Shown: piece by piece, positions 3,692 through 29,485 of the stretch
Layout of the letters: every line of letters starts with the position of its first letter
Position numbering within the stretch: the first letter of the stretch is position 1
NCBI GenBank assembly: GCA_022801925.1
Contig: JAAWTG010000027.1
Span: 1-36,837, forward strand
DNA: 36,837 bases
Source of the DNA: Clostridia bacterium
Lineage (GTDB): Bacteria > Bacillota > Clostridia > RUG12999
Reading direction: 5' to 3'
Position numbers and translations under genes: made by a program
The notes under the pieces: model-generated
The model's database searches: none
Told to the model about the DNA's origin: nothing
What the model saw: only the letters and a program-made list of their open reading frames with translations

Positions 3692-4096
3692 CTATTGTAA
3701 TTTAAAAAAAATATTGCTATAAGGGAAGGTGCTTCCTAATTGAAAAAATGGCGGAGTGCATGAGAAACAATTTATCATCTTATTTTGAGAAAAAGCTTTT
3801 CCGCCGTCAAGATTGATGTCGGAATAGGTAACGTCAGAAAGCCCTTGTTCGCGCGCAATATCTTTGCGATAATCGGTTCTAAGCTCCGGATAACCGTATA
3901 AGCAACTCGGTTCATATCGAAAGGAAATATATTTGTCCGAACCTGTTTTAACCGGCATAAAATCCCGCACCCAGATATCTTTTGTATTCGATATAAATTT
4001 ATATTTGATATCAAATAAATCAAGTGCGGCGAACAAATTGTCCGCCGCAGGTTTGTATGTAGGAGTAGTTTGCAAAAGAGAAGAAAAGTAGATCAT
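3692..4096 (-). pseudogene. C-terminally truncated agmatine deiminase-like gene
   Basis: The 134-residue product contains two signatures of the agmatine deiminase/peptidyl-arginine deiminase family (Pfam PAD_porph): DIWVRDFMPV, where the family has a D-x-W-x-RD motif, and INLDGG, which carries part of the substrate-binding site. Family members are about 340-370 residues. Here similarity stops soon after INLDGG, and the last 35 or so residues look like unrelated sequence, so the catalytic His and Cys of the C-terminal half are missing. The start ATG at 4096 sits one base after the stop of the upstream gene, an arrangement suggesting original translational coupling. A longer frame starting upstream is open but overlaps the neighbour. 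It is best read as a remnant. Confidence 0.6.
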
Positions 4097-4097
4097 A

Positions 4098-4745
4098 TTA
4101 TTCACCGATAACATATTTAGAACGATATCCCAACAGTTCACAGCATCTTTTCTCACGTTCTGTTCTAAATAAATCATCAAGATATTCTTTTACAATTCTT
4201 TCTTTGTTGTCAAAAGGATAGTTTTTTATTTCATGAATTGGCAGAGAGGCAAGAGGTAAATTTTTGTAATTTTCGTTTGTCAACCCTATACGATGCGTAT
4301 GATATATTTCTCCCTCTCTCTCACATTCTATAAGGACATCTTCTTGATTTTCGATATCCAATCCTGTCTTGATTAACTTTCCATTGATTTTTTCTTGCGT
4401 ACAGAATTCTCCATTAACTAAAGCGCTCTTTATTAAAAATGATAAATAATATTCTTTACTGTCGGTAAGACATATATCTATCCCACCGTTTATCTCTGTT
4501 TTTGCATGCTGATACAGCTTGCCCAAGTGATTTTGTTGTCTGGGACTCCTATGGGAGGTAACATCAGGGAAATTCATTTCATGATAATAATACGCTTCAA
4601 CCCAAAGCGGAATAATCACCAATTCCCCGACTTTAAGTGCATACTTCGTCAATAGTTCTTCATTGATTTCCTGTAAAATCTGAATCTGTTGTTTTTCATT
4701 TGTTTCCTGTTCTAAATTTTTTACCAATTCCATTAAGTCATTCAT
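4098..4745 (-). CDS. Hypothetical protein, 215 residues, unrecognised
   Basis: This is an intact open frame with a strong ribosome binding site (AAAGGAGG) before the ATG. No signal peptide or membrane helix is visible. The N-terminus is a charged helix rich in E, Q and N. The centre holds aromatic and glycine motifs (VEAYYYHEMNFPD, QQNHLGKLYQH, NGGIDICLTD, YYLSFLIKSAL), which look like a folded enzymatic or nucleic-acid-binding core. The C-terminus is charged and contains two adjacent cysteines (RCCELLGYR). A faint resemblance to stand-alone proteins annotated as DNA-3-methyladenine glycosylase-like came to mind but cannot be supported from the sequence. It lies in an AT-rich island with phage-like and truncated genes, suggesting acquisition by transfer. 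Confidence 0.6.
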   Translation of the reverse strand: MNDLMELVKNLEQETNEKQQIQILQEINEELLTKYALKVGELVIIPLWVEAYYYHEMNFPDVTSHRSPRQQNHLGKLYQHAKTEINGGIDICLTDSKEYYLSFLIKSALVNGEFCTQEKINGKLIKTGLDIENQEDVLIECEREGEIYHTHRIGLTNENYKNLPLASLPIHEIKNYPFDNKERIVKEYLDDLFRTEREKRCCELLGYRSKYVIGE

Positions 4746-7342: not shown

Positions 7343-7620
7343 GCAAAGGAGGAACTCACGTGTGCCACGAAGTGGTATTCCGCTTTGCTTCGCGAAAGCG
7401 CATGGGGAGAATCGGAACTCCCCGCGTTTTTGGGTAACATTGCTCCAAAAAGCACATGATAAACACGGTAGTATTTATCAGTAAATCGCAATCCGCGTCG
7501 CGGCAGCGACAAGGATAACTCCCCCGTAGGGGAAAATCCTTTCCTGCGGCAACAGCACCCTCGCGCAGCGGGACAAACTCCCTTGTCCCACTGCGCCCAA
7601 TATCCTGTGGCGTTTTTTTC
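7343..7620. repeat. Mosaic of intergenic hairpin repeats
   Basis: The gap after ychF is filled with short palindromic modules that recur elsewhere in the window. One is a TGCCACGAAGTGGTA palindrome, also near 14918. Another is the GGAACTCCCCGCGTTTTTGG module (7414-7453), also at 15128-15166 and inverted near 18983-19024. A third is AATCCGCGTCGCGG plus CAGCGACAAGGATAA (7489-7518), also at 15169 and inverted near 18951 and 36541. A CCCCGTAGGGGAAAA hairpin follows. I see no gene in it; short open frames here are products of the palindromes. Confidence 0.7.
7563..7619 (+). terminator. Possible terminator structure after ychF
   Basis: GCGCAGCGGGACAA (7563-7576) pairs with TTGTCCCACTGCGC (7583-7596) with one mismatch. 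A second small stem (CGCC...GGCG) and seven T follow at 7597-7619. The two stems partly compete. The layout fits termination before the next promoter at 7642. Confidence 0.4.
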
Positions 7621-7641: not shown

Positions 7642-7670
7642 TTGACACTACCCTAGAAACAACTTATAAT
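7642..7670 (+). promoter_or_regulatory. Perfect-consensus SigA promoter (P1) upstream of sdpR
   Basis: TTGACA (7642-7647), a 17-base spacer and TATAAT (7665-7670) match the SigA consensus at all 12 positions. Transcription would begin near 7677 and give a leader of about 155 bases before sdpR. Confidence 0.85.
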
Positions 7671-7831: not shown

Positions 7832-8116
7832 ATGCATTGTGTATTCAAAGCGTTGGCGGATCCAACGCGCAGAGAAATTCTGGCGCTGCTGAGTGAAGGG
7901 GACTTGGCGGCAGGCGAAATCGCGGCGCATTTTAACATGTCGTGGCCCAGTATCTCTCACCATTTGTCCATTTTGAAGCAAGCGGAACTTATCGCTTGCA
8001 TTCGTGAGGGACAAAACGTGATTTATTCCATCAATACCACGGTCTTTCAAGAAATTATGTCTTGGATGATGACCTTGATGGACAGAGGGGAGGTACGTCA
8101 TGAAGAAAAACTTTGA
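7832..8116 (+). CDS. sdpR: ArsR-family repressor, SdpR type
   Basis: I choose the ATG at 7832 because GGGAGGAG lies just before it and the upstream extension crosses both operators. The 94-residue product is one winged-helix domain: ALADPTRREILALLSEGDLAAGEIA (helices 1-2), the recognition segment SWPSISHHLSILKQAELI, and the wing REGQNVIYSIN. SdpR-type proteins of Bacillus repress their own operon, and relief involves the membrane partner SdpI. No metal-binding cysteine pair of the ArsR/SmtB type is seen, which supports SdpR rather than a metal sensor. The gene overlaps the next one by 17 bases. Two perfect inverted repeats upstream are its likely targets. Confidence 0.88.
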   Translation: MHCVFKALADPTRREILALLSEGDLAAGEIAAHFNMSWPSISHHLSILKQAELIACIREGQNVIYSINTTVFQEIMSWMMTLMDRGEVRHEEKL

Positions 8117-8765
8117 CAAATTGTTTTTGTGGCTCAACGGTATATTGGCGACTGCCCACTATCTGATTGGGATTTTGTTCTATAAACAGTTGCCGGACAA
8201 CGTGCCGCTGTTCTACAATTTTTTGGGGCGCACCTTCGTCTACGGCGCCAAAACAATATTATGTTTCGGTATACCAACCGGATTCTTACTGCTCTTTTTG
8301 GTGCTGACTTTTGCGCCGCAGCTTGACCCGCGCAGCCGCAGTTATGCGCAAATTTCGCAGAGATACCAAACAATACAAAACATCATTTTGTTGTTTTTCA
8401 GCGCCGTCTATTGGAGCCATCTCCATTTGGCGCGCGGCTATACTCTAGCAGTGCTGACTTTTGTGCCCATATTAGGCGGTATGTTTCTGGCTGCTTTCGG
8501 CAATTATGCCGTCACGCTCCGTCCGAACTATATTGTCGGCATTCGCACGCCATGGGCGCTAAACAGCGAATGGAACTGGCGCAAAACACACCGGTTCGCA
8601 GGACGGCTTTGGGTCGCGGCGGGAATTGTCATCATTCTTTGCGGATTCCTCTATCCGCCCGCAGCAATTTGCTGTTTGGTGGCGGCAGTCCTCGCGCCTG
8701 TGATTTATTCGCTTGTGCTCTATTTGAAACAAGAATTGAACCATACCGGCGGCGGGAAATCGTGA
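8100..8765 (+). CDS. sdpI: SdpI-family membrane protein (immunity/signal transduction type)
   Basis: The 221-residue protein has about six hydrophobic segments (around residues 10-30, 57-76, 98-115, 119-140, 175-192 and 198-217). It also has the SdpI family signature in the loop before the last pair of helices: NYIVGIRTPWALNSEWNWRK followed by THRFAG. In Bacillus subtilis, SdpI protects from the SdpC toxin and sequesters the repressor SdpR at the membrane. No SdpC-like toxin gene is seen in this window, so a role in sensing envelope-active compounds is an inference. The ATG at 8100 lies inside the end of sdpR, preceded by GGGGAGG, indicating coupled translation. Confidence 0.88.
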   Translation: MKKNFDKLFLWLNGILATAHYLIGILFYKQLPDNVPLFYNFLGRTFVYGAKTILCFGIPTGFLLLFLVLTFAPQLDPRSRSYAQISQRYQTIQNIILLFFSAVYWSHLHLARGYTLAVLTFVPILGGMFLAAFGNYAVTLRPNYIVGIRTPWALNSEWNWRKTHRFAGRLWVAAGIVIILCGFLYPPAAICCLVAAVLAPVIYSLVLYLKQELNHTGGGKS

Positions 8766-8797: not shown

Positions 8798-9916
8798 ATG
8801 AAACGAATACTCAGTTTTTGTATGCTGCTTCTGTTACTCACCTCGGGCTGGGTTTTGGCAGAAGAACCGGAGGCGGAAACGCCCGCGCTGCCGGAAACGC
8901 TGACACTGGACGGCGCAATTGCCTATGCGGCGCAAAACCATCCGCAGGTGCTCGCTGCCCGCGCCGCGCTGGAAAAAAGCGAAGTCGCGGTGAAGGAGGC
9001 GGACAGTTCCTATCAGCAATATAAAACCAAAGCCGCCTATGGCTATGATATGTTCGCCGTGAAAAAAGGTCTGTATTTCACGCAGGCGCAGACCGGTCAG
9101 GTTATTGCGGAAAAAACGCTGCAACAAACCACCGAATCCGTCAAACTCGGCGTGAAAAGTGCGTTCTACAGCTATCTTTCCGCGCAGGAACGCGCGAAAT
9201 TGTTGGAGGAATCCCTCAAAACCACGCAGGCGCGTGTGGCGCAGAACCAGACGCGGTTTGACAACGGCATGATTACCAAAATGGATTTGAAAAGCGCGCA
9301 AATATCCGAAAAAAAGGCGCAGTCCGATTTGGAAAAAGCGCAGCGCGGCGTGGAGATTGCGCTCATGCAGCTCAAAAGCGCCGTCGGTATTCCGGTGCAC
9401 AGTCCTTTAACAGTGACCGGAACGCTGCAAACGCCCGCCATGCCGGAAACGCCGGTGGCGGAAGCCGAAACGCTGGCGCTGCAAAACAGTGCGGACATCA
9501 TTCGCGCCGAACAGCAAAAAATAGCGGACGAAAAGAATTTTGAAGTGACCGGCTTGTGGTACACGGAACGTACTTATAAATATTTGCAAGCACAAGCGGG
9601 CGCGCAGTCCAGCGCACATGCCTATGATGCGGCGGTGGAAAATACGCGTATCGGCGTACATAAAGCATACGATACCATGAAAAGCGCCTATGATACCTAC
9701 GCTTTGGCGCAGGAAACGCGCGACCTCAAAAAACAGGCGTATGAAATCAGCAAAACGCAATACGAACTCGGGCTTGCCACGCCGGTGGACGTGGAGGACG
9801 CATGGAGCGCGGCACAGAGCGCGGAAATGGACTGCTTTGACGCGCAGTTCGCCGTGATTATGGGCGCGGAACAATATGTCTTTTCCTACACGGTCGGCAG
9901 CATCGCGGGCGCATAA
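8798..9916 (+). CDS. TolC-family efflux protein lacking apparent beta-barrel segments
   Basis: The start at 8798 has GGAAAGGA before it and gives a signal peptide (MKRILSFCMLLLLLTSGWVLA). A longer frame reaching back to 8411 overlaps sdpI and is rejected. The 372-residue protein shows the two-fold helical pattern of the outer-membrane efflux family: LDGAIAYAAQNHPQVLAA at the start, a long amphipathic coil with TRFDNGMITKMDLKSAQ near 160, and in the second half TQYELGLATPVDVEDA. E. coli TolC is about 470 residues in mature form; here the stretches between the long helices, where each half normally has two beta strands, are only about 20-25 residues. The product may be an all-helical conduit suited to a single-membrane envelope. 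It probably works with the adaptor and pump encoded next. Confidence 0.8.
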   Translation: MKRILSFCMLLLLLTSGWVLAEEPEAETPALPETLTLDGAIAYAAQNHPQVLAARAALEKSEVAVKEADSSYQQYKTKAAYGYDMFAVKKGLYFTQAQTGQVIAEKTLQQTTESVKLGVKSAFYSYLSAQERAKLLEESLKTTQARVAQNQTRFDNGMITKMDLKSAQISEKKAQSDLEKAQRGVEIALMQLKSAVGIPVHSPLTVTGTLQTPAMPETPVAEAETLALQNSADIIRAEQQKIADEKNFEVTGLWYTERTYKYLQAQAGAQSSAHAYDAAVENTRIGVHKAYDTMKSAYDTYALAQETRDLKKQAYEISKTQYELGLATPVDVEDAWSAAQSAEMDCFDAQFAVIMGAEQYVFSYTVGSIAGA

Positions 9917-10037: not shown

Positions 10038-11594
10038 GTGAAGAAAGTAAAACCAATTGCAATAGTTTGTGCAGCATTATCGCTCCTGAGTCTCGCGGGC
10101 TGTGGGAACAAATCAGCAGAGGAAGAGGCGGCGACCAGCATCACCGTCGCACAAGTGCAGACGGGTGACATCAGTTCCTTCATCACCTACAGCGGCACGG
10201 TAAACGCGACGGCGGACATTGCCGTCACCCCCAAAGCCAGCGGACGTATCACTGGCGTGAACGTAGCGCTGGGACAGCAGGTGAACGCGGGCGACGTACT
10301 GTTCACCATTGAGGACACGGATTTGGCGTTGCAGGTGCGCCAAGCACAGGCGAATCTGGAAACGGCGCAGGCAACCTATGATAAAACCGTAGGCGGCGCG
10401 GCGCAGCAAAGCGAAACGCAGGCGCGGCAAGCATTGACGCAGGCGCAGCAGGAACTGTCCGACGCACAGACCGCTTATGACATGGCGGTGTCCCGCTCGG
10501 ACAATCAATCCAATCTTTTAAGCGCCAAAATCAATTTAGACCAAGCGCAGGCGGCATATGATCGCGCGGTGGAAAACCATAACAACAACACCATTATCAC
10601 CGCTGCGCAAGTGGCGCTGGACGCGGCGCAGACGACTTTGCAGCAGACGCAGAAACTCTATGAACAGGGCGGCGCAACCAAACAGGCGGTAGACCAAGCG
10701 CAGGACGCGGTGAAAAACGCGCAGGCGCAATATGACAGCGCGTCCACCAACGCACGGCAGGCGCTCGACACAGCCAAAAGCCAGTTTGATTTGGCGCAGC
10801 AGCAATATAACGACGCGGTGTGGGCGCAAAACAACAACCAAGAACTGGTGAGCGCAAAAAGCCGTTTGGAAAACGCCAAAACGGCGGTAAATTCCGCGCA
10901 GGAGAACTATAATCTCACCGTGGGCGTCATCAATCCGGAAAACCGCGTGAGTGCGGCGGCGTCCGTGGAAAACGCCCGCGCGGCGTTGGCGCTGGCGCAG
11001 GAAGCGCTGAACAATGCGACCGTACGCTCCCCCATTCGCGGTCAAGTGGCGGCGCTGGATTGCCACACCGGAGATATGGCAAATCCGTCCGCAACCCGCG
11101 TGCAGATTGTAGACCCCACCAGCGTGCAGGTGGAAATCAAAGTGGCGGAAAAGAACATCAACACCGTTTATGTCGGTATGCCGGCAAAAGTGGCGGTTGC
11201 ATCTGCCGGAATTGACGGTTTCGAAGCAACTGTTTCGGAAATCAGTCCGTCCGCCGACGCAGCAACGGGCATGTTCACAGTAAAAATTAATATGGATAAT
11301 TCCGGCGGACTGTTCAAAGCAGGTATGTTCGCGGACTTGCGGTTGGTTTCCGGCAATAATGCTGGCGCGCTGACCATTCCCACGCAGTCCATTCTGGACG
11401 AAAGCGGCAAAAGCGTGGTCTATGTGGTAAACGGCGACAAATTGCAGCGGCGGGAAATCACCACCGGTATTGCGCAGGACGACCGAACAGAAGTCGTTTC
11501 GGGGCTGTCAAACGGTGAAACCGTTGTGGTACGCGGAAAAGATTTCGTGGACGAGGACAGCAAATTTAAAATTATTGAAGATACCATACAATAA
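10038..11594 (+). CDS. RND efflux periplasmic-adaptor-type lipoprotein (HlyD/MFP family)
   Basis: Translation starts at a GTG after GGGAGG. The signal peptide ends in a lipobox (LSLAGC, Cys22), so the protein is a membrane-anchored lipoprotein of 518 residues. The first lipoyl half-motif (PKASGRITGVNVALGQQVNAG) is near residues 63-83 and the second (SPIRGQVAALDCHTGDMAN) near 330. Between them lies an unusually long region of Q/A-rich heptads (about 240 residues), giving a much longer coiled-coil hairpin than AcrA. The beta-barrel domain and a membrane-proximal domain (about 360-510) follow. It would bridge the pump and the TolC-like protein, and the long hairpin could compensate for the wall distance. 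The alanine- and glutamine-rich repeats are prone to length variation. Confidence 0.9.
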   Translation: MKKVKPIAIVCAALSLLSLAGCGNKSAEEEAATSITVAQVQTGDISSFITYSGTVNATADIAVTPKASGRITGVNVALGQQVNAGDVLFTIEDTDLALQVRQAQANLETAQATYDKTVGGAAQQSETQARQALTQAQQELSDAQTAYDMAVSRSDNQSNLLSAKINLDQAQAAYDRAVENHNNNTIITAAQVALDAAQTTLQQTQKLYEQGGATKQAVDQAQDAVKNAQAQYDSASTNARQALDTAKSQFDLAQQQYNDAVWAQNNNQELVSAKSRLENAKTAVNSAQENYNLTVGVINPENRVSAAASVENARAALALAQEALNNATVRSPIRGQVAALDCHTGDMANPSATRVQIVDPTSVQVEIKVAEKNINTVYVGMPAKVAVASAGIDGFEATVSEISPSADAATGMFTVKINMDNSGGLFKAGMFADLRLVSGNNAGALTIPTQSILDESGKSVVYVVNGDKLQRREITTGIAQDDRTEVVSGLSNGETVVVRGKDFVDEDSKFKIIEDTIQ

Positions 11595-11646: not shown

Positions 11647-14600
11647 ATGTCTATTTCAGAAACCTCCGTCAAACGGCCTGTTGCAATGAGCATGGTGGTT
11701 ATGATTATCGTTGTCATTGGGCTTTATGCGCTAACAATGCTTCCCATTGACCTCTATCCCAACATTACCATGCCCATGATAGCCGTTCAGACGAACTATA
11801 GCGGGGTATCCCCCAGCGAAATCGAAGAGATGGTCACCAAACCCATTGAAAGCGCCGTGGCGCGCGTAAGCGGTATTGATACTATCAATTCCACTTCCAG
11901 TCAAGGGTCCAGCATGGTCATTGCACAATTTGACTATAGCGCCGATATGGACGTATGCGCCATGGAGACGCGTGAAAAAGTGGATTTAATCAAAGGGATG
12001 CTGCCCGCGGACGCGGACGACCCCATCATCATCAAAATGGACCCCAGTATGATTCCGATTGCTTCCTTCAGCGTCTCCATGGAAGGTGCGGATTTGGAAA
12101 AAACCAAAACCTTTGCGGATGGCGAAGTGGTAAGCGCACTGGAGGGGCTTTCCGGCGTGGGTTCCGTCACGGTCAGCGGCGGTCTGGAGCGGGAAATCCA
12201 AGTGAATATTGATCCGGCGAAGCTGCTGGGCTATAATCTGTCGCTGTCCAGCGTCACACAGGCAATCGGCGGTGACAACAAGAATCTGCCGGGCGGCGAT
12301 GTAGATTCCGGCGGCAAGACCATGAGCGTGCGTACTATTGGCGAGTTCACCGGCATGGAGGATATTGAAACGCTACCCCTGATTCTGCCGAACGGACAGA
12401 CGATTTATATGCGCGATTTGGCGGACGTGCAGGATACTTACAAAGAAAAGACCAGCGCCAGCCGCTTGCAGGGCGCGGAATGTATTTCCGTCAGCATTCA
12501 AAAACAGTCCGGCGCAAACACGGTGCAGGTTATGCAGAAGGTCAATGCGGCGCTGGAGAAACTGCGCGCGGAAAATCCACAGGTCAACATCAAAATGATT
12601 CTGGACCAAGGGGAAATCGTGGAAAACACCATCAAAACCGTCGCGCAAAACGCCATTTTCGGCGGACTGCTGGCGGTGGTGATTCTGTTTATCTTTTTGC
12701 AGAACATCAAAACCACGCTCGTATTGGCGGCGTCCATTCCGACATCCATCATTGCGACGTTTGCGGCAATGTATTTCATGGGTATCACACTCAACATTGT
12801 GTCGCTCGGCGGGTTGGCGCTCGGCGTGGGTATGCTGGTCGATAACGCCATTGTGGTGCTGGAGAATATTTTCAAATGGCGTTCCAACGGCAAAAGCGCG
12901 AAGGAAGCCGCGATTTACGGCGCAAAACGCGTCACGGGCGCGGTCATTGCTTCCACGCTCACCACGGTGGTGGTGTTCCTGCCGGTGGCGTTCACGGAGG
13001 GTATGACGAGCATTATCTTCCGCGAAATGTCGCTAACTGTTGCGTTTTCGCAGCTATGTTCTTTGCTGATTACACTCATGCTGGTACCCATGCTGGCGTC
13101 CAAACTGCTGCGCGGCGAAACAGCTTCCTCTCCGCGGATACAAAAGATGTTCACGCCGTTCAACCGCGGTCTGGAAAAAGTCTATGGCGGATATGAATGG
13201 CTGCTCCGCTGGGCGCTGAGTCACCGCAAACGTTTGGCGTTGATTACCGTCCTGCTGTTTATCGGCAGCATCTGTCTGGTGCCTATGATTGGCGCGGAAT
13301 TCATGCCGACTGTGGATTCGGGACAGTTCACCATTGACGTGGAAATGCCCAAAGGCACCGCGCTTGCGGAAACAGACCGCACGGTGAAACGGGTGGAGGA
13401 AATCGCGCAGGCGCACAGCGGCGTGGATGACGTATTCTCCACGGTTTCCGGCGATAGCGGCAGCATTAATGTGACGCTGAAAAAGGGCATGAAAACTAAA
13501 AAACCGATGGAGGAACTGCGAAAAGAAGTGTCCGAACAGGTGGCGGGTGCGAACATCACCATGACGGGCAGCGGTTCCATGATGGGCGGCAGCAGCGGCG
13601 GTCCTATCAATGTTAAAATCAAGGGCGAGGACTATGACGTAGCCGCCGGTATTGCAGACCAGATTCTGCTGGAAATGCAAAGTATTGACGGTATCCGCGA
13701 CGCCAAAAGCAGCGTGTCGGATACCAAGCCGGAGGTGCGGCTGTATTTGAACCGTCAAAACGCCGCGCAATACGGCATGACAAACGCGGCGGCAGCTTCC
13801 GCTATCCGCGCCGCGCTGGACGGTCAAGTCGCGGGACAATATACCGAGGACGGCACAGAATATGATATCCGTGTCAAGTTTCCTGACGAAGCAACGCAGA
13901 CGCTGGACGATTTGAAAAACATCAAACTCACCACGCCAAAAGGCGGCGTTATCACCATCAGCGAAATTGCGGACATTGAACAGACGGGCGGACCGCTGAG
14001 CCTGACGCGCGAAAACCAGAAAAAAATTGTCACAGTATCCGCGTCGCTCTACGGACGCAGTTTATCGGACGCCATGCAGAACATTCAAAAATCCATCAAT
14101 ACATTGAAACTGCCGGACGGATATACCGTGACAACAGGCGGCGACTACGAGCAAATGACGGAAGCGTTCGGCGGGCTGTTTTTGGCGTTGCTGCTGTCCA
14201 TTCTGCTGGTCTACATGGTGATGGCAGCGCAGTTTGAATCTCTGCTCCAGCCGTTTATCATCATGTTCTCCATTCCGCTGTCGTTTATCGGCGTGTTCTT
14301 GACGCTGTTCCTCAGCCGCAACACGCTGAACGTCACGGGGCTTATCGGTGTGATTATGCTGGTGGGTATCGTGGTAAACAACGCTATTGTGTTGCTGGAC
14401 TACATCAACCAGAACAAAAAAGATTGGGAAGGCAGCCGCATAGATTTGATTGTGGAAGCGGGCAAAAACCGTTTGCGCCCCATTTTAATGACAACACTCA
14501 CTTCTGTGCTGGGGTATCTGCCCTCTATCTTGTCGTTTAGCCAAGGGTCGGAAATGATGAAACCCCTTGCATGGGTTTTGATGGGGGGCTTAAGCGTTTC

Positions 14601-14730
14601 CACACTGCTGACGTTGGTATTCATTCCGACGTTCTATAGCTATGTGGAGGACAGAACCGAACGCCGGGCTAAGAAAAAAGAAGCAAAACGCGCGGCAGTC
14701 GGCGGCGGGACACAGGAATTGGAATTTTAA
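11647..14730 (+). CDS. RND-family efflux permease (AcrB/SwrC-like)
   Basis: The 1027-residue protein has the duplicated RND layout: an N-terminal helix, a large extracytoplasmic loop (about 40-330), a six-helix block, a second loop (about 550-840) and a second six-helix block. The TM4 motif is GMLVDNAIVVLEN with Asp399-Asn400. AcrB has two aspartates (DD) here, so one proton-relay acid is Asn, as is common in RND pumps of Bacillota. TM10 has VVNNAIVLLDYIN. SwrC (YerP) of Bacillus subtilis, linked to surfactin export, is the nearest characterised type I can name. The ATG follows AGAGGAG at good spacing and the gene is the last of the efflux cluster. The terminator at 14791 closes the unit. Confidence 0.95.
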   Translation: MSISETSVKRPVAMSMVVMIIVVIGLYALTMLPIDLYPNITMPMIAVQTNYSGVSPSEIEEMVTKPIESAVARVSGIDTINSTSSQGSSMVIAQFDYSADMDVCAMETREKVDLIKGMLPADADDPIIIKMDPSMIPIASFSVSMEGADLEKTKTFADGEVVSALEGLSGVGSVTVSGGLEREIQVNIDPAKLLGYNLSLSSVTQAIGGDNKNLPGGDVDSGGKTMSVRTIGEFTGMEDIETLPLILPNGQTIYMRDLADVQDTYKEKTSASRLQGAECISVSIQKQSGANTVQVMQKVNAALEKLRAENPQVNIKMILDQGEIVENTIKTVAQNAIFGGLLAVVILFIFLQNIKTTLVLAASIPTSIIATFAAMYFMGITLNIVSLGGLALGVGMLVDNAIVVLENIFKWRSNGKSAKEAAIYGAKRVTGAVIASTLTTVVVFLPVAFTEGMTSIIFREMSLTVAFSQLCSLLITLMLVPMLASKLLRGETASSPRIQKMFTPFNRGLEKVYGGYEWLLRWALSHRKRLALITVLLFIGSICLVPMIGAEFMPTVDSGQFTIDVEMPKGTALAETDRTVKRVEEIAQAHSGVDDVFSTVSGDSGSINVTLKKGMKTKKPMEELRKEVSEQVAGANITMTGSGSMMGGSSGGPINVKIKGEDYDVAAGIADQILLEMQSIDGIRDAKSSVSDTKPEVRLYLNRQNAAQYGMTNAAAASAIRAALDGQVAGQYTEDGTEYDIRVKFPDEATQTLDDLKNIKLTTPKGGVITISEIADIEQTGGPLSLTRENQKKIVTVSASLYGRSLSDAMQNIQKSINTLKLPDGYTVTTGGDYEQMTEAFGGLFLALLLSILLVYMVMAAQFESLLQPFIIMFSIPLSFIGVFLTLFLSRNTLNVTGLIGVIMLVGIVVNNAIVLLDYINQNKKDWEGSRIDLIVEAGKNRLRPILMTTLTSVLGYLPSILSFSQGSEMMKPLAWVLMGGLSVSTLLTLVFIPTFYSYVEDRTERRAKKKEAKRAAVGGGTQELEF

Positions 14731-15114: not shown

Positions 15115-15127
15115 GACCGGAAAGTTC

Positions 15128-15223
15128 GGAACTCCCCGCGTTTTTGGGTAACATTGCTCCAAAAAGTACAATCCGCGTCGCGGCAGCGACAAGGATAATC
15201 CCCCGCAGGGGAAAAACCTTTTC
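15128..15223 (+). repeat. Intergenic repeat modules, second copy
   Basis: This stretch repeats the modules at 7414-7453 and 7489-7540 almost base for base, but joined without the roughly 35-base insert found in the first copy. The rest of the 14834-15283 gap holds palindromes and no convincing gene. Confidence 0.7.
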
Positions 15224-15283: not shown

Positions 15284-15326
15284 AAGCAAAAGAGAGTCGA
15301 TTCTTAGAATCGACTCTCTTTTGCTT
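15284..15326 (-). terminator. 21-base perfect palindrome at the 3' end of the lyase gene
   Basis: Positions 15284-15304 and 15306-15326 are perfect complements with one central base; the core is AAAAGAGAGTCGA. It overlaps the stop codon of the heparinase-type gene. The outer T-rich arm can act as U-tract in either direction, so it is probably a bidirectional terminator. The core recurs at 9915 and 27335. Confidence 0.7.
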
Positions 15327-17214
15327 ATTCTTCCACAATATGTACGCCATGGCTGTCCCAACGGAGGTGATACGCCTTGCCGTCCAATGAAAACGTACAA
15401 TCTTTTCCGTCAAAGAAGAGTCCTTCCGCAGCAGGGCATTTTCCGCTGAACGGGCACAGTACCGTCGCATATGCGCGCGTTTCTTCGCCGGCGGCGTCCT
15501 CCAGTTCCAGACGCGTGGAGGCGTGCCAAACGTCCACACGCTCGCCCACAATGCCCTCCAGCAAAGTTCCTCTCAAGCCGGACATGGGATAGACGGCAAT
15601 GTTCGCGTCTTCGTCCGCGCTCCTCCAGCCGCCGTCCACCGCTTGCACCTGCACGGAATTAAAGTGATAGTAAATCTGCACGCTGTCCTCCGGCTTTAAT
15701 CCCTCCAATCGGTCTAACACCACCACAAACGCGCCATCCACCAACGCCAGCGCACGGCGGTGTACCACCGGCGCATATTCAATATGGACAGCGGCGGCGT
15801 AACGCAGACGGTCGTTCTCCGTCGCGTCATAAATCTCTCCATACTTCTGAGCGCCGTAGGCAAAGGAACCTTGATATGCAAAATGGTCGCGGCGGTTCAC
15901 GGTCAGTGTATTATGATACGCAGGACTTTTCAGCCGGTAGCGCAACTCATTATCCTGATAGGTCACGATACCAGGGTCTACCAACAATGGTTTCCCTAGC
16001 GCAGACAAATCAAAGCCCATGGGGTCAATGTGCGCGTGCAAGTTCTGAATGGGCGTCCGGCAGGCGAACATCACACTGATATCGTCTTTTTCCCAGCCAC
16101 TACGCAAAAACACCTGTTTCAGCGGTTTTTGCCAGTTCAGGCAGGGTAAATCGACAGGCGCGGCGGTTTCCTCCAACTGTTCCAGCAACATTTCTAAATT
16201 GGGCAGCCGCCACAGATGGTCTGAAATTTCCCGCAAAACATCCTCTTTTCTGCTGTAGCGCGCCACGGCATGAAACCAGCGCATGTCGTGAAACACACCA
16301 TATCCATATGCGCCGGCAAGCGGCGCGTTATTTTTCGCCGCGGAATCACCCCAAGAAATAATTTCGCCGTTGGGTCGCAGCGCAAACGCGGAATAGTCCA
16401 GCGCGCGTCGGTACCGCTCCACATATTCCTTGCTGAACAAAAATCCATAGCGCGCCGCCAATAGAAAACTGTGTCCAAACCAGAACATGCAGCCGTTGTG
16501 ATACATAGGACAACCTTCAATCTGTCCGCCGCCCTCGGTGAGCTGTGCAGCGCTGCACCGTTCCAACTGGCGAATTGCCGTTTCTCTCCAGCGCGGCGCG
16601 TCCTGCTCTTGCGGAAACAGCAGCGCCACGCTGAGCAGTCCCAGCATTTCCATCAGAAAATGGTTGTGGTCTGCATTCGGCCACAAAACCGGCGACACTT
16701 CCTCCAACAACCGTGCATGTTCCAATAAACTGTCCCGATAAACCGTTTGTATCTCCGCCGAAAACAGCGAGTCGCCCTCCAAAAAATCCATCAGGAGCGG
16801 AAATGTTTTATAGGCACGGATACCAACTTCCAAAATACGCCATGGATGCGGTCCGCTGAAAAACACTTCCATCTCATGCACATCCCGTGGCACCTGCGGC
16901 GCAGGAACCGTTTCTATCCAATGCGCCAATTCGTCCAGCACTTTTTTCGCATATTTTTCTTCCCTTGTCAGCGCATATGCCGCCAGCAGCGGCTGCCAAT
17001 GCGTCATACGGTTGAGCTGCCACAAATATTCCTTGTCGCCCACCTTGTTGTCTGTCCAATCCACCGGATTACCCACAAACAGCGGTTTGGCGCCCGTGCC
17101 GGGCAGAATATGTTCTCCCCGCAGATACATGTCCGCACGCCGAATCGTTTCCTGCGCCACCTCCGGCAGCCGTTTTTGTATCAACGCCGCGCGGCGCTGC
17201 ATGTCCTGCCGCAT
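15325..17214 (-). CDS. Heparinase II/III-type polysaccharide lyase
   Basis: The 629-residue protein has an N-terminal helical toroid domain (about 1-350) and a C-terminal beta-sandwich. Motifs include NADHNHFLMEMLG near residue 182, with the Asn and His typical of the lyase active site, then EGGGQIEGCPMYH near 228. HAHIDPMGFDLSALGKPLL near 390 corresponds to the HxHxD...GxPLLVDPG motif of the heparinase II/III family. No signal peptide is seen, so it probably acts in the cytoplasm on imported oligosaccharides. The lyase reaction leaves a 4,5-unsaturated uronate, the substrate of the GH88 enzyme in this locus. Substrate (heparin/heparosan, chondroitin, alginate or another uronan) cannot be decided. 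The ATG follows AAAGGGGGAC. It lies 31 bases after the PHP gene. Confidence 0.88.
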   Translation of the reverse strand: MRQDMQRRAALIQKRLPEVAQETIRRADMYLRGEHILPGTGAKPLFVGNPVDWTDNKVGDKEYLWQLNRMTHWQPLLAAYALTREEKYAKKVLDELAHWIETVPAPQVPRDVHEMEVFFSGPHPWRILEVGIRAYKTFPLLMDFLEGDSLFSAEIQTVYRDSLLEHARLLEEVSPVLWPNADHNHFLMEMLGLLSVALLFPQEQDAPRWRETAIRQLERCSAAQLTEGGGQIEGCPMYHNGCMFWFGHSFLLAARYGFLFSKEYVERYRRALDYSAFALRPNGEIISWGDSAAKNNAPLAGAYGYGVFHDMRWFHAVARYSRKEDVLREISDHLWRLPNLEMLLEQLEETAAPVDLPCLNWQKPLKQVFLRSGWEKDDISVMFACRTPIQNLHAHIDPMGFDLSALGKPLLVDPGIVTYQDNELRYRLKSPAYHNTLTVNRRDHFAYQGSFAYGAQKYGEIYDATENDRLRYAAAVHIEYAPVVHRRALALVDGAFVVVLDRLEGLKPEDSVQIYYHFNSVQVQAVDGGWRSADEDANIAVYPMSGLRGTLLEGIVGERVDVWHASTRLELEDAAGEETRAYATVLCPFSGKCPAAEGLFFDGKDCTFSLDGKAYHLRWDSHGVHIVEE

Positions 17215-17245
17215 TTTATTGTCCCCCTTTTCTCTGCTCTACTGC

Positions 17246-18730
17246 TCATTTTTTGTTCACAAACACCGGCGATACCCATGCATATTGCTCGTTTTTCTGC
17301 CGCACTTCCACATAATAAACATCATGCTCCGTCTGCGGCGTATCTTTGACATTCGCCTGAAACCGGTACGCCGTATCCGGCACTGCCTGATGCACCAGAC
17401 AGGCATGGCTGTTGTAGCTGTCCATATGCATGGAGCGGGAACTTTCCAGCAGTTCTCCCACTGTCACATTCATTTGCCGCCCGTTCACCTCCAGCGAAAG
17501 CGCCGTTTTGGGGCTGCCGCTGACAGTCAGATTCACTGCCGCTGTCGCCGGTACGGTGCTGGACGGATTTTTAAATGTCTCCGCTGTAAATTCCACGCTG
17601 TTATCGCTGCACACGGCAATATGGTTGCGGAGATTGTTCACATCATCGTCCGCTTTGTCTTTTTCTGCCGGCGAAAGAACATTGCGTCCGCGGAAACACG
17701 GTTCCGCGTCCAAAAATTTCCCGCCGCGCACGCACGCCGCACATTCCCATAGATATCCTTCCTCGGTGTTTTTGCCCCAGCCCAGTTCAATACGGATTTT
17801 ATAGTTCCCTTCCGTTTCCGCTGATTCCGGCTGATGGAACACATAGAGCGGTTTCAGGTTTTTATATAACGTAACGCTGTCGATAAAATCGCACGCTTCC
17901 ACGTTAATATCAATGTCGCGCGCGTCCGCTGTGATTTCGCTGCCCATGGGCGCGCCGTTGACGGAAAATTGGCAGCGGATTTTGTCCCCAGTGACCGCAT
18001 AGGTTCGCCGCTGCAAAATGGCGTCCCACACCGCTTCTTTTGTCGCTTCTTCCGCCCAGACCGCTGCGCGTCCGTCGCCATAACTGCCCGGGTAGCCTGC
18101 ATGATGGTCGGTGGACGCGACAAATCCGAATTTATATCCGCGGCGCAATCCTTCCCATGCTGTGCTGCGTCCGTCACGCGGTCCCATGGTGTGGTAGTAG
18201 GGATAGGGCGCGCCGTCCGACATGCCGCAGCCATGCTTGGAATAGACTTCCACCACCGGAGAAATGGTTTCATCAAATTCATCCCAGTTGATACCGCGGT
18301 ATCCCGGCGTGTAGCCCATGTGGTGGGGAATCACAATGCCAGGACTGGGCGACACATTTTCCAGCAAATTTTTGGGAGACGCAGATGGGATTAGTGGTAA
18401 GTGATTGTCTGTGGAAAGCAAATGATAGTCCCCATAGTGGGAGGAGTGCATTTCGTAGCCCTGAAAAGTGATGAACTCTTCCGCCGCCGCTGCCGCTACA
18501 ATCGCGCGGATTTCCTCCCAGCGCGCTTTCAGTTTGGCAAACCCTGCCTTGTGATAGTCCACCAGAAACGCGCGCTCCGGCGTGCGCTCCGGAATATCGG
18601 GCCACATCGCATGTCCTGTCACCATACAAAAATCCAATTGTTCCCGCGCCGCGGCAAGCGCATGTTCCAGACTTCCATATCCATAGGTCATGCCGCAATG
18701 GTTATGGATATCGCCAAACAAAAGTTTCAT
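17246..18730 (-). CDS. PHP-type metallohydrolase, DUF3604/CehA-McbA-like
   Basis: The 494-residue protein begins with the PHP metal motif FGDIHNHCG (His9, His11) and continues with VTGHAMWPD, a conserved GYEMHSSHYGDYH segment, IPHHMGY and ASTDHHAGYPGSYGDGR, all consistent with a trinuclear metal centre. The C-terminal about 230 residues are beta-rich and probably form Ig-like modules. DUF3604 proteins often sit in polysaccharide utilisation loci, but their reaction is not established. No signal peptide is present, so it is cytoplasmic like its neighbour. The start has AGGAGGATAACT before ATG. It is followed 31 bases later by the lyase gene, suggesting that the two act on the same substrate. 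The sequence gives no support for a classical nuclease or polymerase PHP role. Confidence 0.82.
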   Translation of the reverse strand: MKLLFGDIHNHCGMTYGYGSLEHALAAAREQLDFCMVTGHAMWPDIPERTPERAFLVDYHKAGFAKLKARWEEIRAIVAAAAAEEFITFQGYEMHSSHYGDYHLLSTDNHLPLIPSASPKNLLENVSPSPGIVIPHHMGYTPGYRGINWDEFDETISPVVEVYSKHGCGMSDGAPYPYYHTMGPRDGRSTAWEGLRRGYKFGFVASTDHHAGYPGSYGDGRAAVWAEEATKEAVWDAILQRRTYAVTGDKIRCQFSVNGAPMGSEITADARDIDINVEACDFIDSVTLYKNLKPLYVFHQPESAETEGNYKIRIELGWGKNTEEGYLWECAACVRGGKFLDAEPCFRGRNVLSPAEKDKADDDVNNLRNHIAVCSDNSVEFTAETFKNPSSTVPATAAVNLTVSGSPKTALSLEVNGRQMNVTVGELLESSRSMHMDSYNSHACLVHQAVPDTAYRFQANVKDTPQTEHDVYYVEVRQKNEQYAWVSPVFVNKK

Positions 18731-18819
18731 AGTTATCCTCCTGATTTCTACTCATTATGAAGGGGGCGGAAGCCGGTAAACTGCGCCGGACCCCGTCCCC
18801 TCTCATTTTTTCATTGCAG

Positions 18820-19036
18820 TCGCTGCCGCGACTATGATGTACTTTTTGGAGCAAAAAATACCAAAATCCTTTTTATCGCTTACCCTTCCCAACGCCTCCG
18901 ATTTGCCTCCCTTGCCTAAAGGGAGGGGGACCAGCCGCAGGCTGGTGGAGGGATTATCCTTGTCGCTGCCGCGACGCGGATTGTACTTTTTGGCGCAAAA
19001 AGTACCAAAAACGTGGGGAGTTCCGATTCTCCCCAC
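18820..19036. repeat. Intergenic repeat modules in inverted orientation
   Basis: This region holds an ATGTACTTTTTGGAGCAAAAAATACC palindrome, an inverted copy of the GTCGCGGCAGCGAC module, a perfect palindrome GTACTTTTTGGCGCAAAAAG near 18983 and a GTGGGGAG/CTCCCCAC hairpin (19013-19036). These are the same building blocks as at 7343-7620 and 15128-15223. The gap 18731-19477 holds no supportable gene. Confidence 0.65.
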
Positions 19037-19077
19037 ACCCCTACAAACGGCCCTTGCAGGGGGCTTTAGTGCTTGTC

Positions 19078-19101
19078 GTTACTGTAGCTTTCTACAGTAA
19101 C
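19078..19101. repeat. Perfect 10-base hairpin with CTTT loop
   Basis: GTTACTGTAG (19078-19087), CTTT, CTACAGTAAC (19092-19101). Confidence 0.6.
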
Positions 19102-19129
19102 TAACCGGAATCGGACTACTTCTCATTCA

Positions 19130-19160
19130 TGGAATGTCCGGACACGTGCCGGACATTCCA
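19130..19160. repeat. Perfect 12-base hairpin
   Basis: TGGAATGTCCGG (19130-19141), a 7-base loop ACACGTG, and CCGGACATTCCA (19149-19160). Confidence 0.65.
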
Positions 19161-19232
19161 TACCTCTCAGACGCGGGCGTTTTGATAGAAACGCCGCGAG
19201 AGCAAACGCGGCAGGGGGGCAAAGAGCGGAGA

Positions 19233-19401
19233 ATGTATTCTTCCAAGAAAAGTAAGAGGAGGAGCGGGGGCAAGAACGGAAGATATTTCTCCCAAGAAAA
19301 GTAAAGGAGGAGGATTTTGACTATGTCAAAATCCGGGGGACATTTTCAAGGGAGAAATATCTGTAGTGGCGTTCGGGGGACATTTTCAAGGAAGAATACA
19401 T
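19233..19401 (+). repeat. Covarying palindromic element, outer part of nested copy c
   Basis: ATGTATTCTTCC (19233-19244) and GGAAGAATACAT (19390-19401) are perfect complements. Just inside are AAGAAAAGTAAGAGG and GGGGGACATTTTCAA, the conserved flanks of this family. The position of the central hairpin is occupied by a complete second element (19281-19362). Confidence 0.75.
19281..19362 (+). repeat. Covarying palindromic element, inner part of nested copy c
   Basis: AGATATTTCTCCC (19281-19293) and GGGAGAAATATCT (19350-19362) are perfect complements. Inside are AAGAAAAGTAAAGG, a perfect central hairpin GGATTTTGAC-TAT-GTCAAAATCC (19312-19334), and GGGGGACATTTTCAA. The central hairpin sequence is unrelated to that of copies a and b yet fully paired. 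Confidence 0.78.
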
Positions 19402-19477
19402 GCGGAGCGTACCTTGGGGGGACGATAACGACGGCGCATAAAACAAGCCGGAATAAGTCCCCCTTTTGAATACACTT

Positions 19478-21280
19478 TTATTTTTTCAGCAATTCATATA
19501 GCATTTTGCAAGCCTGTGCACGCGTTGCGTTTTGCTGCGGCTGGAAGGAACCGTCCTCCATACCGTTCACAATGCCGTTTGCCTGCATTTTACCAACCGC
19601 TTCCGCTGCATAGTCACTAATTGCCGCCGCATCGGTGAACGCTGCGCCTGTTCCACCGTCCAGCGAAACGCCCGCATACTGTGCGGCGCGCACGATAATC
19701 ACCGCCATATCTTCCCTTGTGATGTTGGCATTCGGACTAAATCCGCTGCCGGTGCCGTTCACAATACCACAGGCTGCCGCTGTGCACACTACATCATAGA
19801 ACCAGTCGCCCTGCACCACATCGTCAAACGCCACACTACCGGCATCCGCCGTAATTTCCAGCGCATTCACAATCATTTTCACAAATTCTGCGCGTGTCAC
19901 ACTGCTTTCAGGGTCAAACACGCCGCTTTCTTTACCATTGACCACACCGCGGTAATACAGGGCAAGAATGGGTTCCTGCGCCCATTCGGAACCTGCCAAA
20001 TCATAGAACACCTGCGTGTTCTCTGTGCCGGTACCGCTGCCCGTTCCGGTCCCGCTTCCTATCCCAGACCCTGTGCCGGAGGTCGTCGGAATACCCGTCC
20101 ATGAACCGCCTCCGCCGCTGCCGCCGCCATGTCCGCCTCCGCCCTGCGGCGGTGTTGTCGTAATCTTATCATCATCGTCTGTGCCCGCTGCATGTTCCTG
20201 CACCTTTGTCGCAAACTGCGTAGCAATCTCCGCCGCAGACGGCATGGTGAGTTTCATTAAATCGTTTATCACGCGCACCCGTTTCGCGTCTGACAACGCG
20301 TCATATGCCGTGAAATCAATGCCCAGTGTCGCCGCTTCCCGCCGCAGCACTTCCTGCATGGTACCGGACGCCGTGATATCATTGATATATCCAACCAGCG
20401 CCGCTTTTTCAAAAGATGCGCGTGCGGTCTGCACGTCCGCAAAATCTCCCTCCGCCGCTAACGCCTGATAGACAATCGTACGGTTCGCCGCTAAGTTGAT
20501 TTTTGCATAATTGCTGCCGTCTCCCATGGCAAATTGATAGTAGCTGCCATATTTTCCGATATATTCCTGCAATTTTGCCGCGTCTTTTGTGCTTTGCAGC
20601 AGTGCAAACGCTGCCGGCTGCTCAAACAGCCGCGCAATGCGGTTTGCGCTCGCCAAATTCTCTCCATCAATCGCCGGGTCGGCGTTCACAATCGCGCCAT
20701 AGATTTTTTCCGCTGCCGCACCGGTCAATGTTTTTTGTGCATCGTCCGCCAAATCGCCGTTCATACCCAATTTCACAGCAATGTCTTTCGTGAACATCTC
20801 CTGCAACGCTTCCGGCGATTTCACCGCCGCAATCGCACGCAGTACGTCCAATACATCGTTCCGGTTGGTGTAGTCAATCGTTCCGGTTTTGATGTCGCCG
20901 CACGCCAGAATAAACGGATATGCGCCCGTTTCGCCTTCCACGCCGTTCGGACCTTTGGTCATGTCAAATTCAATTTCAAATACACCGTCCTCAAAAGACT
21001 GCACGGTGTCTGTATAATATAGTTTTTCCTCCAGCACGTCCGTCGTTTGCAAAATGCCGCTCACATTGGTGCCGGGCACGAATACCATCAGCGTCACACC
21101 GGTTTCTTTCTTTGCCGTCAACGCGCCGGAAACGACGACAAATCCCGTTTCCACGTCCACATCAGGCACATCGATTTCTGCAAAAGCGCTGCCTGCTGCC
21201 AGCGAACCGACTGTGCATACCATCATGCATACCGCCGCTGCCAGCGCAATGAGTCTGCGTGCCAATTGATTTCTTTTCAT
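19478..21280 (-). CDS. Secreted surface protein with three C-terminal SLH domains
   Basis: The ATG at 21280 follows GGAGGG and opens a clear signal peptide (basic MKRNQLARR, hydrophobic core, cleavage near GSAFA); the 30 upstream in-frame residues are rejected. The 600-residue protein has a beta-rich N-terminal module (about 35-130, GFVVVSGALTAKKETGVTLMVF), a helical middle region, a low-complexity linker rich in Gly, Ser and Thr near 385-420, and three SLH repeats in the last 180 residues. These are marked by FDPESSVTRAEFVKMI, FSPNANITREDMAVII and FQPQQNATRAQACKML. SLH domains bind pyruvylated wall polymers, so this protein is wall-anchored. It follows the large LamG/X2 gene by about 100 bases and may help display a complex, though no cohesin or dockerin is seen. 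Confidence 0.9.
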   Translation of the reverse strand: MKRNQLARRLIALAAAVCMMVCTVGSLAAGSAFAEIDVPDVDVETGFVVVSGALTAKKETGVTLMVFVPGTNVSGILQTTDVLEEKLYYTDTVQSFEDGVFEIEFDMTKGPNGVEGETGAYPFILACGDIKTGTIDYTNRNDVLDVLRAIAAVKSPEALQEMFTKDIAVKLGMNGDLADDAQKTLTGAAAEKIYGAIVNADPAIDGENLASANRIARLFEQPAAFALLQSTKDAAKLQEYIGKYGSYYQFAMGDGSNYAKINLAANRTIVYQALAAEGDFADVQTARASFEKAALVGYINDITASGTMQEVLRREAATLGIDFTAYDALSDAKRVRVINDLMKLTMPSAAEIATQFATKVQEHAAGTDDDDKITTTPPQGGGGHGGGSGGGGSWTGIPTTSGTGSGIGSGTGTGSGTGTENTQVFYDLAGSEWAQEPILALYYRGVVNGKESGVFDPESSVTRAEFVKMIVNALEITADAGSVAFDDVVQGDWFYDVVCTAAACGIVNGTGSGFSPNANITREDMAVIIVRAAQYAGVSLDGGTGAAFTDAAAISDYAAEAVGKMQANGIVNGMEDGSFQPQQNATRAQACKMLYELLKK

Positions 21281-21335
21281 TGTTCCCTCCACCCGCTTTC
21301 TATCGTTTTCAGCCCTTCCGGCCGGTTCTTCTGTT

Positions 21336-21369
21336 TGTTTGGGAGGGACGCCGCGCCCGCTCCCAAACA
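21336..21369 (-). repeat. Hairpin between the two surface-protein genes
   Basis: TGTTTGGGAG (21336-21345) and CTCCCAAACA (21360-21369) are perfect complements with a 14-base loop and no T-run. It may stabilise or attenuate the mRNA between the large protein gene and the SLH gene. Confidence 0.5.
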
Positions 21370-21379
21370 CATCATTTCT

Positions 21380-24300
21380 TTATTCTCCGTCAATCGCCGC
21401 TAAAACGTCCAGCGTTTCGCCATTTTCGCCCATTCTCCAGATGAAATAGCGGACGCTGTAGTTGTTTCCTGACGGTTTATGCACAATTTCCTCTGCGGTC
21501 AGAGAAACCGTTTCACCTGTCCGGAGGGTTACTTGTTTCGTTTTTGCTGCCATGAGCGACGGCTTGCCGGTGCTGTTGTCATACAGCGCGCTCATTACCA
21601 GCGCACTATCGTCCGCGCTGTCCAGATTCTTTTTAATCGTAATGCCTGCCGCCTCGTTTTCAAGGTCGATAAAATAGTCGGAATCCGGACGCAGACCGGT
21701 CTGCGTACCCGGTACCACATTTGGCGTCACAAGACGCGTTCTGTCCGGCGCGCCTTCATAGATGTCCAGATTGTCAATATAGAGCGGTCCGAAGCCCTCC
21801 GCTATATTGATGCGAAGCTGTTTCGCCGTATAGGGATTGCCGTTCAGGTTGAAGGTCAAGGTTCCCGTTTCGCCTGTTGTGGTGTCGGTCACGGTCACAG
21901 TCGTGCTTGCAATGCCGGTTGTTGAACCGGTCGTTCCGACATGCACTTCCACATGGAACCAGTGATTCGGCGTATATTTCAGCGCCGGTTTTATATCTGT
22001 TGCATTTGCTTCAAAAATACCGTCTTTTCCAATTTGGAACGGACGTCTGCTGATTTCCGGAAGCTGAACCATTGCCATGTAATCGCCAACGCTATAGTCC
22101 TCTTTGGTGCCAAAGAAATCATAGGCGACCGTATAGCCCGTTTTATAGTCCGGCACTGTGCCAAGATTGATGTTCAACGCCCCGTTTTTCATTTTCAGAG
22201 TGTTGTTTTCTTTGGCACCGCGATAGGCATAGTCTTTTGCCAGCTTTGCCGTCCAAGTATAGTTTCCGTTTGCGCTGAGCGCAAAATCCTGTTTCTTTCC
22301 GGAAGCCGGCAATTCCCATGTTTCAAAGGTGTTTTGTTCCATGGTTCCCGCCAGTTTATCCACACCAAATGTCGCTGTCAGCGTCACATCTCCTGCCGGC
22401 ATGGTGATCGTCAACGGATTTTGCGTCTGCTGTGCGGCGCTCAAGGTGATACCTTCCGCCGTCCAACTTGTAAACTGATACCCTTTGTTTGCCGTTGCCG
22501 CTACCGTCACTTGCGTGCCCGCTTCAAATGCCGCGCCCGCCGTCTGCACTGCCGCGGTTCCCTGTGCGCTGTCAGACGTTGCCGCCGTCACGGAATAGGT
22601 TTGCAGACCCGGTGTGCTGTTCGCCACCGTAACCGTCACTGCCGGATTCGTGCCGCCGTCCATTGCAAAGGTCAATGTATGGGCACCCAATGATAACGTA
22701 TCCAGATAAGAGGTTGCAATGGTATAGGTATTGCCGCTTACGGTATAGTCCGTATCTTTTGCCAGTGTCGCACTGCCGTTTTTCAACGCGCTGAAGGTAT
22801 AATCACCCGCCGCTAACGTTACGGCAACCGCCTGATGGTCTGCGTGGCTGGCATATTTATCATAATTTGCCGCCGCAGGCGTTACGGACGCATTCGTTTT
22901 TGCCGCAAACGCCGCCGTGAGTGTCACGTCCGCGTCCGGCATGGTAATGGTCAGCGGATTCTGTTTTTGCTGCTGCGCACTCAAAGTGATTCCTGCTGCT
23001 GTCCAGCCCGTGAATTTATAGCCTGCTTTGGGCGTGGCTTCCACCGTCACGATTGCACCCGCTTCAAACCCATTTCCTTCTGTCGTCACTGCCGCGGTTC
23101 CCTGCGCACTGTCCGTCGAAGCCGCTGTCACTATGTGCGTGCCTGCCGGAGGTGGCGTAGTACCGGGCGCAATCGTCGGCGTCACCAGACGTGTTCTGTC
23201 CGGCGCGCCTAAATAGAAATCAAGGTTGTCAACATAAAAGTCAATGTTTTTCGCGGTTTGAATCTGGAAATATCCGCAAGCTCTTGCAGCAGCATTGGGA
23301 CCATAGTCATATGTTCCTGTTTTCCCTGCTGTGGTATCTGTCAAAATACCGATTGCATTCCCGCTCGCCGGCATATATAATTCTACATGATACCAATGAT
23401 TTGGCGTATACGTCATTGCCGCTCCGCTGTCATCTGTTACCGCTGTTCCGTTGAATGCAAAATTCCCGTTGGTTTCTATTGTGAACGCCCGTGTACCCGC
23501 CACATGAATGAGTTCTAAACGTGCGGGAGCAGTCGGGAAGGTCCCATAGAAATCATAGGCAAGCGTCCATGCCCCCGACACTCCTTGAGGTGTCAGCTTC
23601 ATAAACAGCGGCTGTCCGGTGCCTTTCAGCAGGAACGAGGTGTTTTGCACGGTTCCGTTGTCCGCCTTGTCCATTTGCAGCGTGCTATAGTTGCTGTAAG
23701 AATAGGCGCCGTTCGCGCTGCCGGAAACAAATGCTGTCGGCGGCGCTCCCTCCAAATCCTTCCATGTTTCAAAGGTATTTTGTTCAATCGTTTTGTTGAT
23801 ATTGATGGCAAGACGCGCCGATTTTGAGTCGTTTTTGCCGTCATATGCTACAATAAACGCCAGTGTAGTTGTTTTTCCTGCCTCTTTGGTATCCAGATAA
23901 GAGGTTTTAATCGTATATTTGTTACCGTCCACGGTATAATCTGTACCTTCTACCAATACTTCCGCACTGGTTTTCTTAATTTGTACAAACGTATAGTCAC
24001 CTGTATCCAGCGTCACTTCAATATCTTTGCGGTTCGGTGAACTTTGGTCATACGTTGCTGTCGTTTTATCAAGACTTGCCGTGCGCAGCGCTTTGAAATT
24101 CGCCGTCAGCGTCACGTCGCCTGCCGGCATGTTGAATGTGATTTCTTTTGCCGTCGCGTCCGCGAGTGTCACGCCGGTTGCCGTCCAGTTCACAAATCCA
24201 TATCCGCTGTTTGGCGTTGCCGTAACAGTCACTTCCGCGCCCTCTTTCACGCTGCCTCCCTCGGGACTTACCGCCACTTTTCCGCCTTCTCCGGCAGTGG

Positions 24301-25819: not shown

Positions 25820-25832
25820 TGTTTCTTCCCTC

Positions 25833-27008: not shown

Positions 27009-27069
27009 TTGATATTTTGTTCCCCCTTCTCACGCAATTTCATTGTATTTTCCCCTATATTTTGCCTTC

Positions 27070-27099
27070 TTTATATGTAACTCCAATATATAACCTCAA
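27070..27099 (-). promoter_or_regulatory. Probable promoter of the GH88-surface protein operon
   Basis: On the minus strand TTGAGG, an 18-base spacer and TATAAA lie about 65 bases upstream of the GH88 start codon. Confidence 0.5.
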
Positions 27100-27334
27100 A
27101 ATGCTTCCCAAAACGGCAATCTTAACGCAAAGCGCCGCAGTTCGGGCAGCTGCCTGCCCTGCAGACCTGTTATTTATTTTTCCCCACAGAATCCCCTGAG
27201 ATTGAATACGTTCTTGTGCCTTTAGACATAAGGGAATCGAATCATATATGCCTTAACCCCGCCGCGTTTCCGAAAGAAACGCCGGGCGGGGTGGGCACCT
27301 ATCCGCTGCCTTTCACGAGACAGTTTTTATGCCT
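27100..27334. other. Non-coding gap between permease and GH88 genes
   Basis: No gene is supported. It contains an imperfect palindrome, CCCCGCCGCGTTTC with GAAACGCCGGGCGGGG (about 27257-27292). A related CGGCGTTTC-type hairpin occurs near 19185. No regulatory RNA was recognised. Confidence 0.5.
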
Positions 27335-28257: not shown

Positions 28258-28273
28258 TTCTTCTGCACCTCCT

Positions 28274-29480: not shown

Positions 29481-29485
29481 GGTTA

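Follow-up and report, generated by a model that had tools for sequence, protein, structure and literature searches.

A TolC-family protein without barrel hairpins in the RND pump operon of an almost certainly monoderm Clostridia bacterium

The window, by which we mean the whole 36,837-nucleotide stretch of Clostridia DNA that was analysed, carries on its forward strand a likely operon with the gene order sdpR-sdpI-OEP-adaptor-RND, the third gene of which encodes a barrel-less OEP/TolC-family protein (8798-9916). Upstream of the operon is a perfect sigma-70-type promoter consensus (TTGACA-17-TATAAT; 7642-7670), a candidate based on consensus match; 16 sites were found where 6.5 are expected. 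The first gene encodes an SdpR-family autorepressor of the ArsR type (7832-8116; NCBIfam NF033789, 129.8 bits, cut-off 100). Its longest open reading frame begins at 7694, but since the NF033789 match begins at residue 50 the ATG at 7832 is the probable start. An SdpI-like membrane protein follows (8100-8765; Pfam SdpI, 73.5 bits), and downstream of the OEP gene are those for a 518-aa RND periplasmic-adaptor (membrane-fusion) lipoprotein with the lipobox LAGC (10038-11594; TIGR01730, 212.5 bits) and a 1027-aa RND permease of the AcrB type (11647-14730; Pfam ACR_tran, 856 bits, covering profile positions 1-1020 of 1021). The SdpR/SdpI pair of Bacillus subtilis is the model for reading control of this type, and by analogy the genes at the head of the operon suggest induction by membrane-active peptides or toxins.

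The OEP open reading frame extends from the ATG at 8798 to a stop at 9916 and encodes 372 aa, which match the Pfam OEP profile (PF02321) in three stretches at 101.4 bits (cut-off 22). The profile locates two OEP repeats, at 9083-9388 and 9566-9829, in agreement with an earlier note on this DNA that had described a 372-residue product with both helical repeats of TolC. A putative signal peptide was read by eye at residues 1-21 (8798-8860, +; ending ...VLA/EE) and no lipobox was seen in the sequence; the signal peptide indicates that the protein is probably secreted. Alignment and model place the adaptor-facing tip of repeat 1, with its conserved tip glycine, at residues 156-160 (9263-9277, +; RFDNG-MITKMDL) and that of repeat 2 at residues 324-328 (9767-9781, +; QYELG-LATPVDV), and the adaptor-docking tip motif YExG-x-x-T-x-x-D-L/V is found in both repeats (FDNGMITKMDLK and YELGLATPVDVE). 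The locus is also intact, at 99% identity, in a sister species of the same genus.

Hairpins were measured, for each repeat, as the number of residues from the NP-like motif at the start of the first helix pair to the tip glycine (RFxxG), in an alignment of 146 OEPs made up of those of Clostridia and of BamA-positive Bacillota together with Escherichia coli TolC. The distances (repeat 1/repeat 2) are 108/94 in the window OEP compared with 132/145 in TolC, so that the former has 24 and 51 residues fewer, and in the barrel-bearing OEPs of BamA-positive Bacillota neither repeat falls below 121. An AlphaFold2 (AF2) model from the single sequence (mean pLDDT 70, pTM 0.43) is helical, with six-residue links between the long helices at residues 80-85 (9035-9052, +) and 267-272 (9596-9613, +), which by model and alignment are the sites of TolC hairpins 1 and 2, respectively. 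Neither link shows a strand pair in this model, in which the second falls within a low-confidence stretch (residues 240-276, pLDDT <50). The claim of the earlier note that the links are too short for the strand pairs of TolC is thus borne out by both the distances and the predicted helices, although its figure of about 20-25 residues is only approximate. In a Foldseek search of the model against the PDB the first 44 matches, with E up to 0.1, all belong to the TolC/OprM family, with TM-scores to TolC of no more than 0.41. The window OEP therefore shares with E. coli TolC and Pseudomonas OprM the two OEP repeats, the conserved docking tips and the link to an adaptor and an RND pump, but lacks the two transmembrane β-hairpins per chain that form the 12-strand barrel, and resides in a cell without outer membrane or BAM machinery.

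The absence of an outer membrane is indicated by the genome as a whole. The host is represented by a 2.95-Mb metagenome-assembled genome (MAG), 96% complete, in which neither Omp85/BamA nor LpxC was matched, and no Omp85 above the family cut-off was found in any of 293 genomes of the class Clostridia (in a sample of 299 genomes from the phylum, 73 are Omp85-positive); the cell is therefore almost certainly monoderm. The earlier note had seen no outer-membrane genes in view and had named BamA or LPS genes elsewhere in the genome as evidence against its reading, and its picture of a single-membrane cell with a TolC-family protein lacking the barrel is supported here and placed in an RND operon. 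A Negativicutes origin of the DNA is ruled out by the lack of Omp85 and by its Clostridia kinship. The SLH surface proteins that the note mentioned are represented in the window by one at 19478-21370 and in the genome by at least 150 SLH repeats, and these proteins presumably form an S-layer.

That monoderm Firmicutes encode TolC-like proteins in pump operons has been described before (Stubenrauch et al., 2022, PLoS Biol; PMC8809574), on the basis of 12 examples, one of which was modelled by homology, with an S-layer location proposed. In that work S-layer genes co-occur with the TolC-like proteins, the operons include adaptor and pump, the Clostridioides difficile protein is released together with S-layer proteins, and part of the barrel is missing from its homology model. 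The idea of the earlier note is thus a rediscovery for monoderm Firmicutes. The window OEP corresponds to that group in its duplicated OEP fold with a putative signal peptide, its adaptor and pump operon in a Bacillota cell without BAM, and its putative S-layer proteins (from the SLH repeats above); the likeness of the C. difficile protein, including the missing part of the barrel, is by description rather than alignment. In the text of that paper that was consulted no mention was found of barrel-less OEPs in diderm Bacillota, nor did the open-access literature yield a later paper on barrel-less monoderm TolC-like proteins. A further parallel, again by description in the part of the source consulted, is the Mycobacterium MmpS5L5 system (PMC12501195), which shares an RND-type pump and a helical tube without a TolC barrel, the tube there being an alpha-helical coiled-coil of an apparently non-OEP protein. 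In 2022 the question was raised of how an RND pump with a TolC partner functions in a one-membrane cell, and the window provides a clean, compact case, with a single barrel-less OEP, an adaptor, an RND permease and a regulator of its own.

By profile search, OEP proteins are present in 90 of the 293 Clostridia genomes. All 67 Clostridia OEPs that were measured, a set exclusive of the window OEP and of a suspected contaminant, have a repeat-2 distance of 109 or less, none within the barrel-bearing range; the smallest value, 69, probably reflects a protein cut at the end of its locus, and several of the 67 carry insertions in repeat 1. Judged by these alignments, the second hairpin is absent across all Clostridia OEPs measured (n=67), a property of the whole class. 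The protein set aside is a barrel-bearing, Ser/Gly/Met-rich OEP on a 3.3-kb contig (L013) of a Clostridia MAG (G101), probably a foreign contig, and hence was not accepted as a true barrel-bearing Clostridia OEP.

The barrel-less type is not confined to monoderms. The OEPs of 40 BamA-positive genomes split sharply into barrel-bearing and short proteins (∼95/93), and each of the 27 short OEP genes in this first set is accompanied on its own strand by a longer one, mostly adjacent or overlapping, with the partner cut by the contig end at two loci. Because these 27 loci had partly been picked from the match table for looking paired, a profile built from the short proteins was run against a second set of 33 further BamA-positive genomes; at all 20 loci taken from among its best matches the short gene has a partner, a barrel-bearing OEP in 18 cases and one of intermediate length in two (155/113 and 156/113). 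In total, 47 of 47 diderm barrel-less OEP genes adjoin a longer OEP gene or lie within about 4 kb of one on the same strand, the paired genes often overlapping by a few bases, and many of the loci examined (L087-L106, L146-L152 and L196-L215) also show RND or ABC pump genes. Both partners mostly retain the adaptor-docking tip. Clostridia instead have short/short pairs or, as in the window, a single short gene. These gene neighbourhoods suggest a pairing rule, possibly new, whereby the barrel-less OEP of diderm Bacillota is encoded beside a longer one, in most cases barrel-bearing; no description of it was found in the open-access literature, to which the search was directed, most subscription papers lying outside its scope. 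Since the same type occurs in BamA-positive cells, a simple adaptation to the missing outer membrane does not account for barrel loss, and the absence of hairpins alone is no mark of a single-membrane channel.

A tree of the OEPs, restricted to alignment columns with an occupancy of 60% or more and so leaving out most hairpin positions, contains a group of 99 rows (SH-aLRT 94) that unites the window OEP, all 67 Clostridia short proteins, 26 of the 27 diderm short proteins and five others, of which four are barrel-bearing proteins of diderms and one is the suspected contaminant. Within the tree 23 diderm short proteins form one clade (98) and the window OEP clusters with 13 Clostridia short proteins (99). 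On this tree, a quick one whose branches are long and whose deep nodes are weak, the barrel-less type is likely to have arisen once, and no direction can be read from it. The possibility that one member of the monoderm pairs is a barrel-bearing OEP after loss of its barrel is unsupported, as both members fall in the barrel-less group.

The reading that we favour, and consider moderately probable, is that the window OEP forms a trimeric helical exit duct that sits on the adaptor of a monoderm RND pump and opens in the wall or surface layer. The protein would be secreted by the Sec pathway, as its signal peptide implies, and would assemble as a trimer in which the two helical repeats of each chain build a TolC-like alpha-barrel, as expected from its family. 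Its two conserved tip loops would dock on the lipoprotein adaptor, which in turn would sit on the RND permease, and at the opposite end the barrel of TolC would be replaced by the short helix-helix links seen in the alignment, predicted by the model to close it off. The tube would then have its far end within the peptidoglycan or the SLH surface layer rather than in a membrane, and a helical channel through the cell wall, as the earlier note proposed, is plausible. The SLH repeats of the genome, the release of the C. difficile protein with S-layer proteins and the surface-protein association across the class given below also favour this reading, against which the exceptions to that association count. 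Judging by the gene order, a switch of the SdpR/SdpI type that senses membrane-active toxins or peptides probably controls the pump. The protein would belong to a barrel-less lineage that also includes OEPs of BamA-positive Bacillota, there co-encoded with a barrel-bearing OEP.

This last point allows another, more tentative account, in which the barrel-less OEP is a spacer, a segment of the diderm periplasmic tube between the adaptor and the barrel-bearing OEP and the only segment retained in monoderms. The proximity of all 47 diderm genes to a longer OEP gene and the docking tips kept in most members of both kinds are consistent with such stacking, but co-encoding is no proof of it, tips in both members fit alternative use equally well, and the partial selection of the first 27 loci also weighs on the pairing. 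Should the two OEPs indeed form a single duct, the pump would have a new architecture and would bear a molecular trace of how Bacillota came to lack the outer membrane. The corresponding history, which we regard as possible rather than probable, is that barrel-less OEPs are an old, separate Bacillota pump subunit, paired in diderms; loss of the outer membrane would have removed the barrel-bearing partner, while the barrel-less one, in some cases duplicated into a short/short pair, would have persisted as a tube across the wall. On this view the window OEP would be a survivor from a diderm ancestor and not the product of barrel loss in place.

An equally doubtful alternative is that the links form a small cap, not inserted in a membrane, with affinity for polymers of the S-layer or wall, making the protein an S-layer-embedded duct of the kind proposed for C. 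difficile. SLH or CWB2 is present in 85 of the 90 OEP-positive Clostridia genomes compared with 112 of the 203 OEP-negative ones (odds ratio 13.8, Fisher 1e-12, a figure that ignores relatedness), and in two genomes genes for CWB2 cell-wall proteins are located no more than a few kb from a barrel-less OEP pair (L117 in G191 and L118 in G286). Aromatic residues (F/W/Y) are also more frequent in the links of Clostridia OEPs (0.10 and 0.15) than in the links of the diderm barrel-less type (0.02 and 0.06), a difference likewise uncorrected for phylogeny. The AF2 model, however, has no strands at the links, and among the five OEP-positive genomes with neither surface family is one (G047) with a clear OEP pair. 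That the window OEP has no channel function and is a relic or some secreted helical protein, as the lack of a membrane for its upper end to open through might suggest, is very improbable given a gene intact in two species of the genus, an intact pump operon with retained tip motifs, and the spread of OEP proteins among Clostridia genomes.

The exit duct that we favour would dock on an adaptor whose helical hairpin, by alignment, has about 233 residues in the window compared with 75 in AcrA (the AF2 model of the adaptor is poor, pLDDT 51). The idea that monoderm adaptors have a longer hairpin to span a thick wall was set aside, as hairpins in adaptors of BamA-positive genomes reach 259 residues, and hairpin length is thus not diagnostic. 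At the other extreme, adaptors with a hairpin of only about 42 residues were seen at L096, L105, L150 and L210-L212, all of them loci with a short/barrel-bearing OEP pair.

Elsewhere in the window, a modular intergenic repeat occurs at 7400-7543, 15126-15221, 18950-19035 and 36542-36620, on both flanks of the pump operon among other places, and at about ten more sites in the genome. A plasmid search gave only four weak matches. The region 15325-31189 is a polysaccharide-breakdown cluster with heparinase II/III, the SLH protein, GH88, an ABC permease, a solute-binding protein and a 1479-aa CBM_X2/InlB-repeat protein. Lastly, a short and seemingly truncated open reading frame at 3692-4180 contains the motif WVRDFMP, which we take to be reminiscent of agmatine deiminase.
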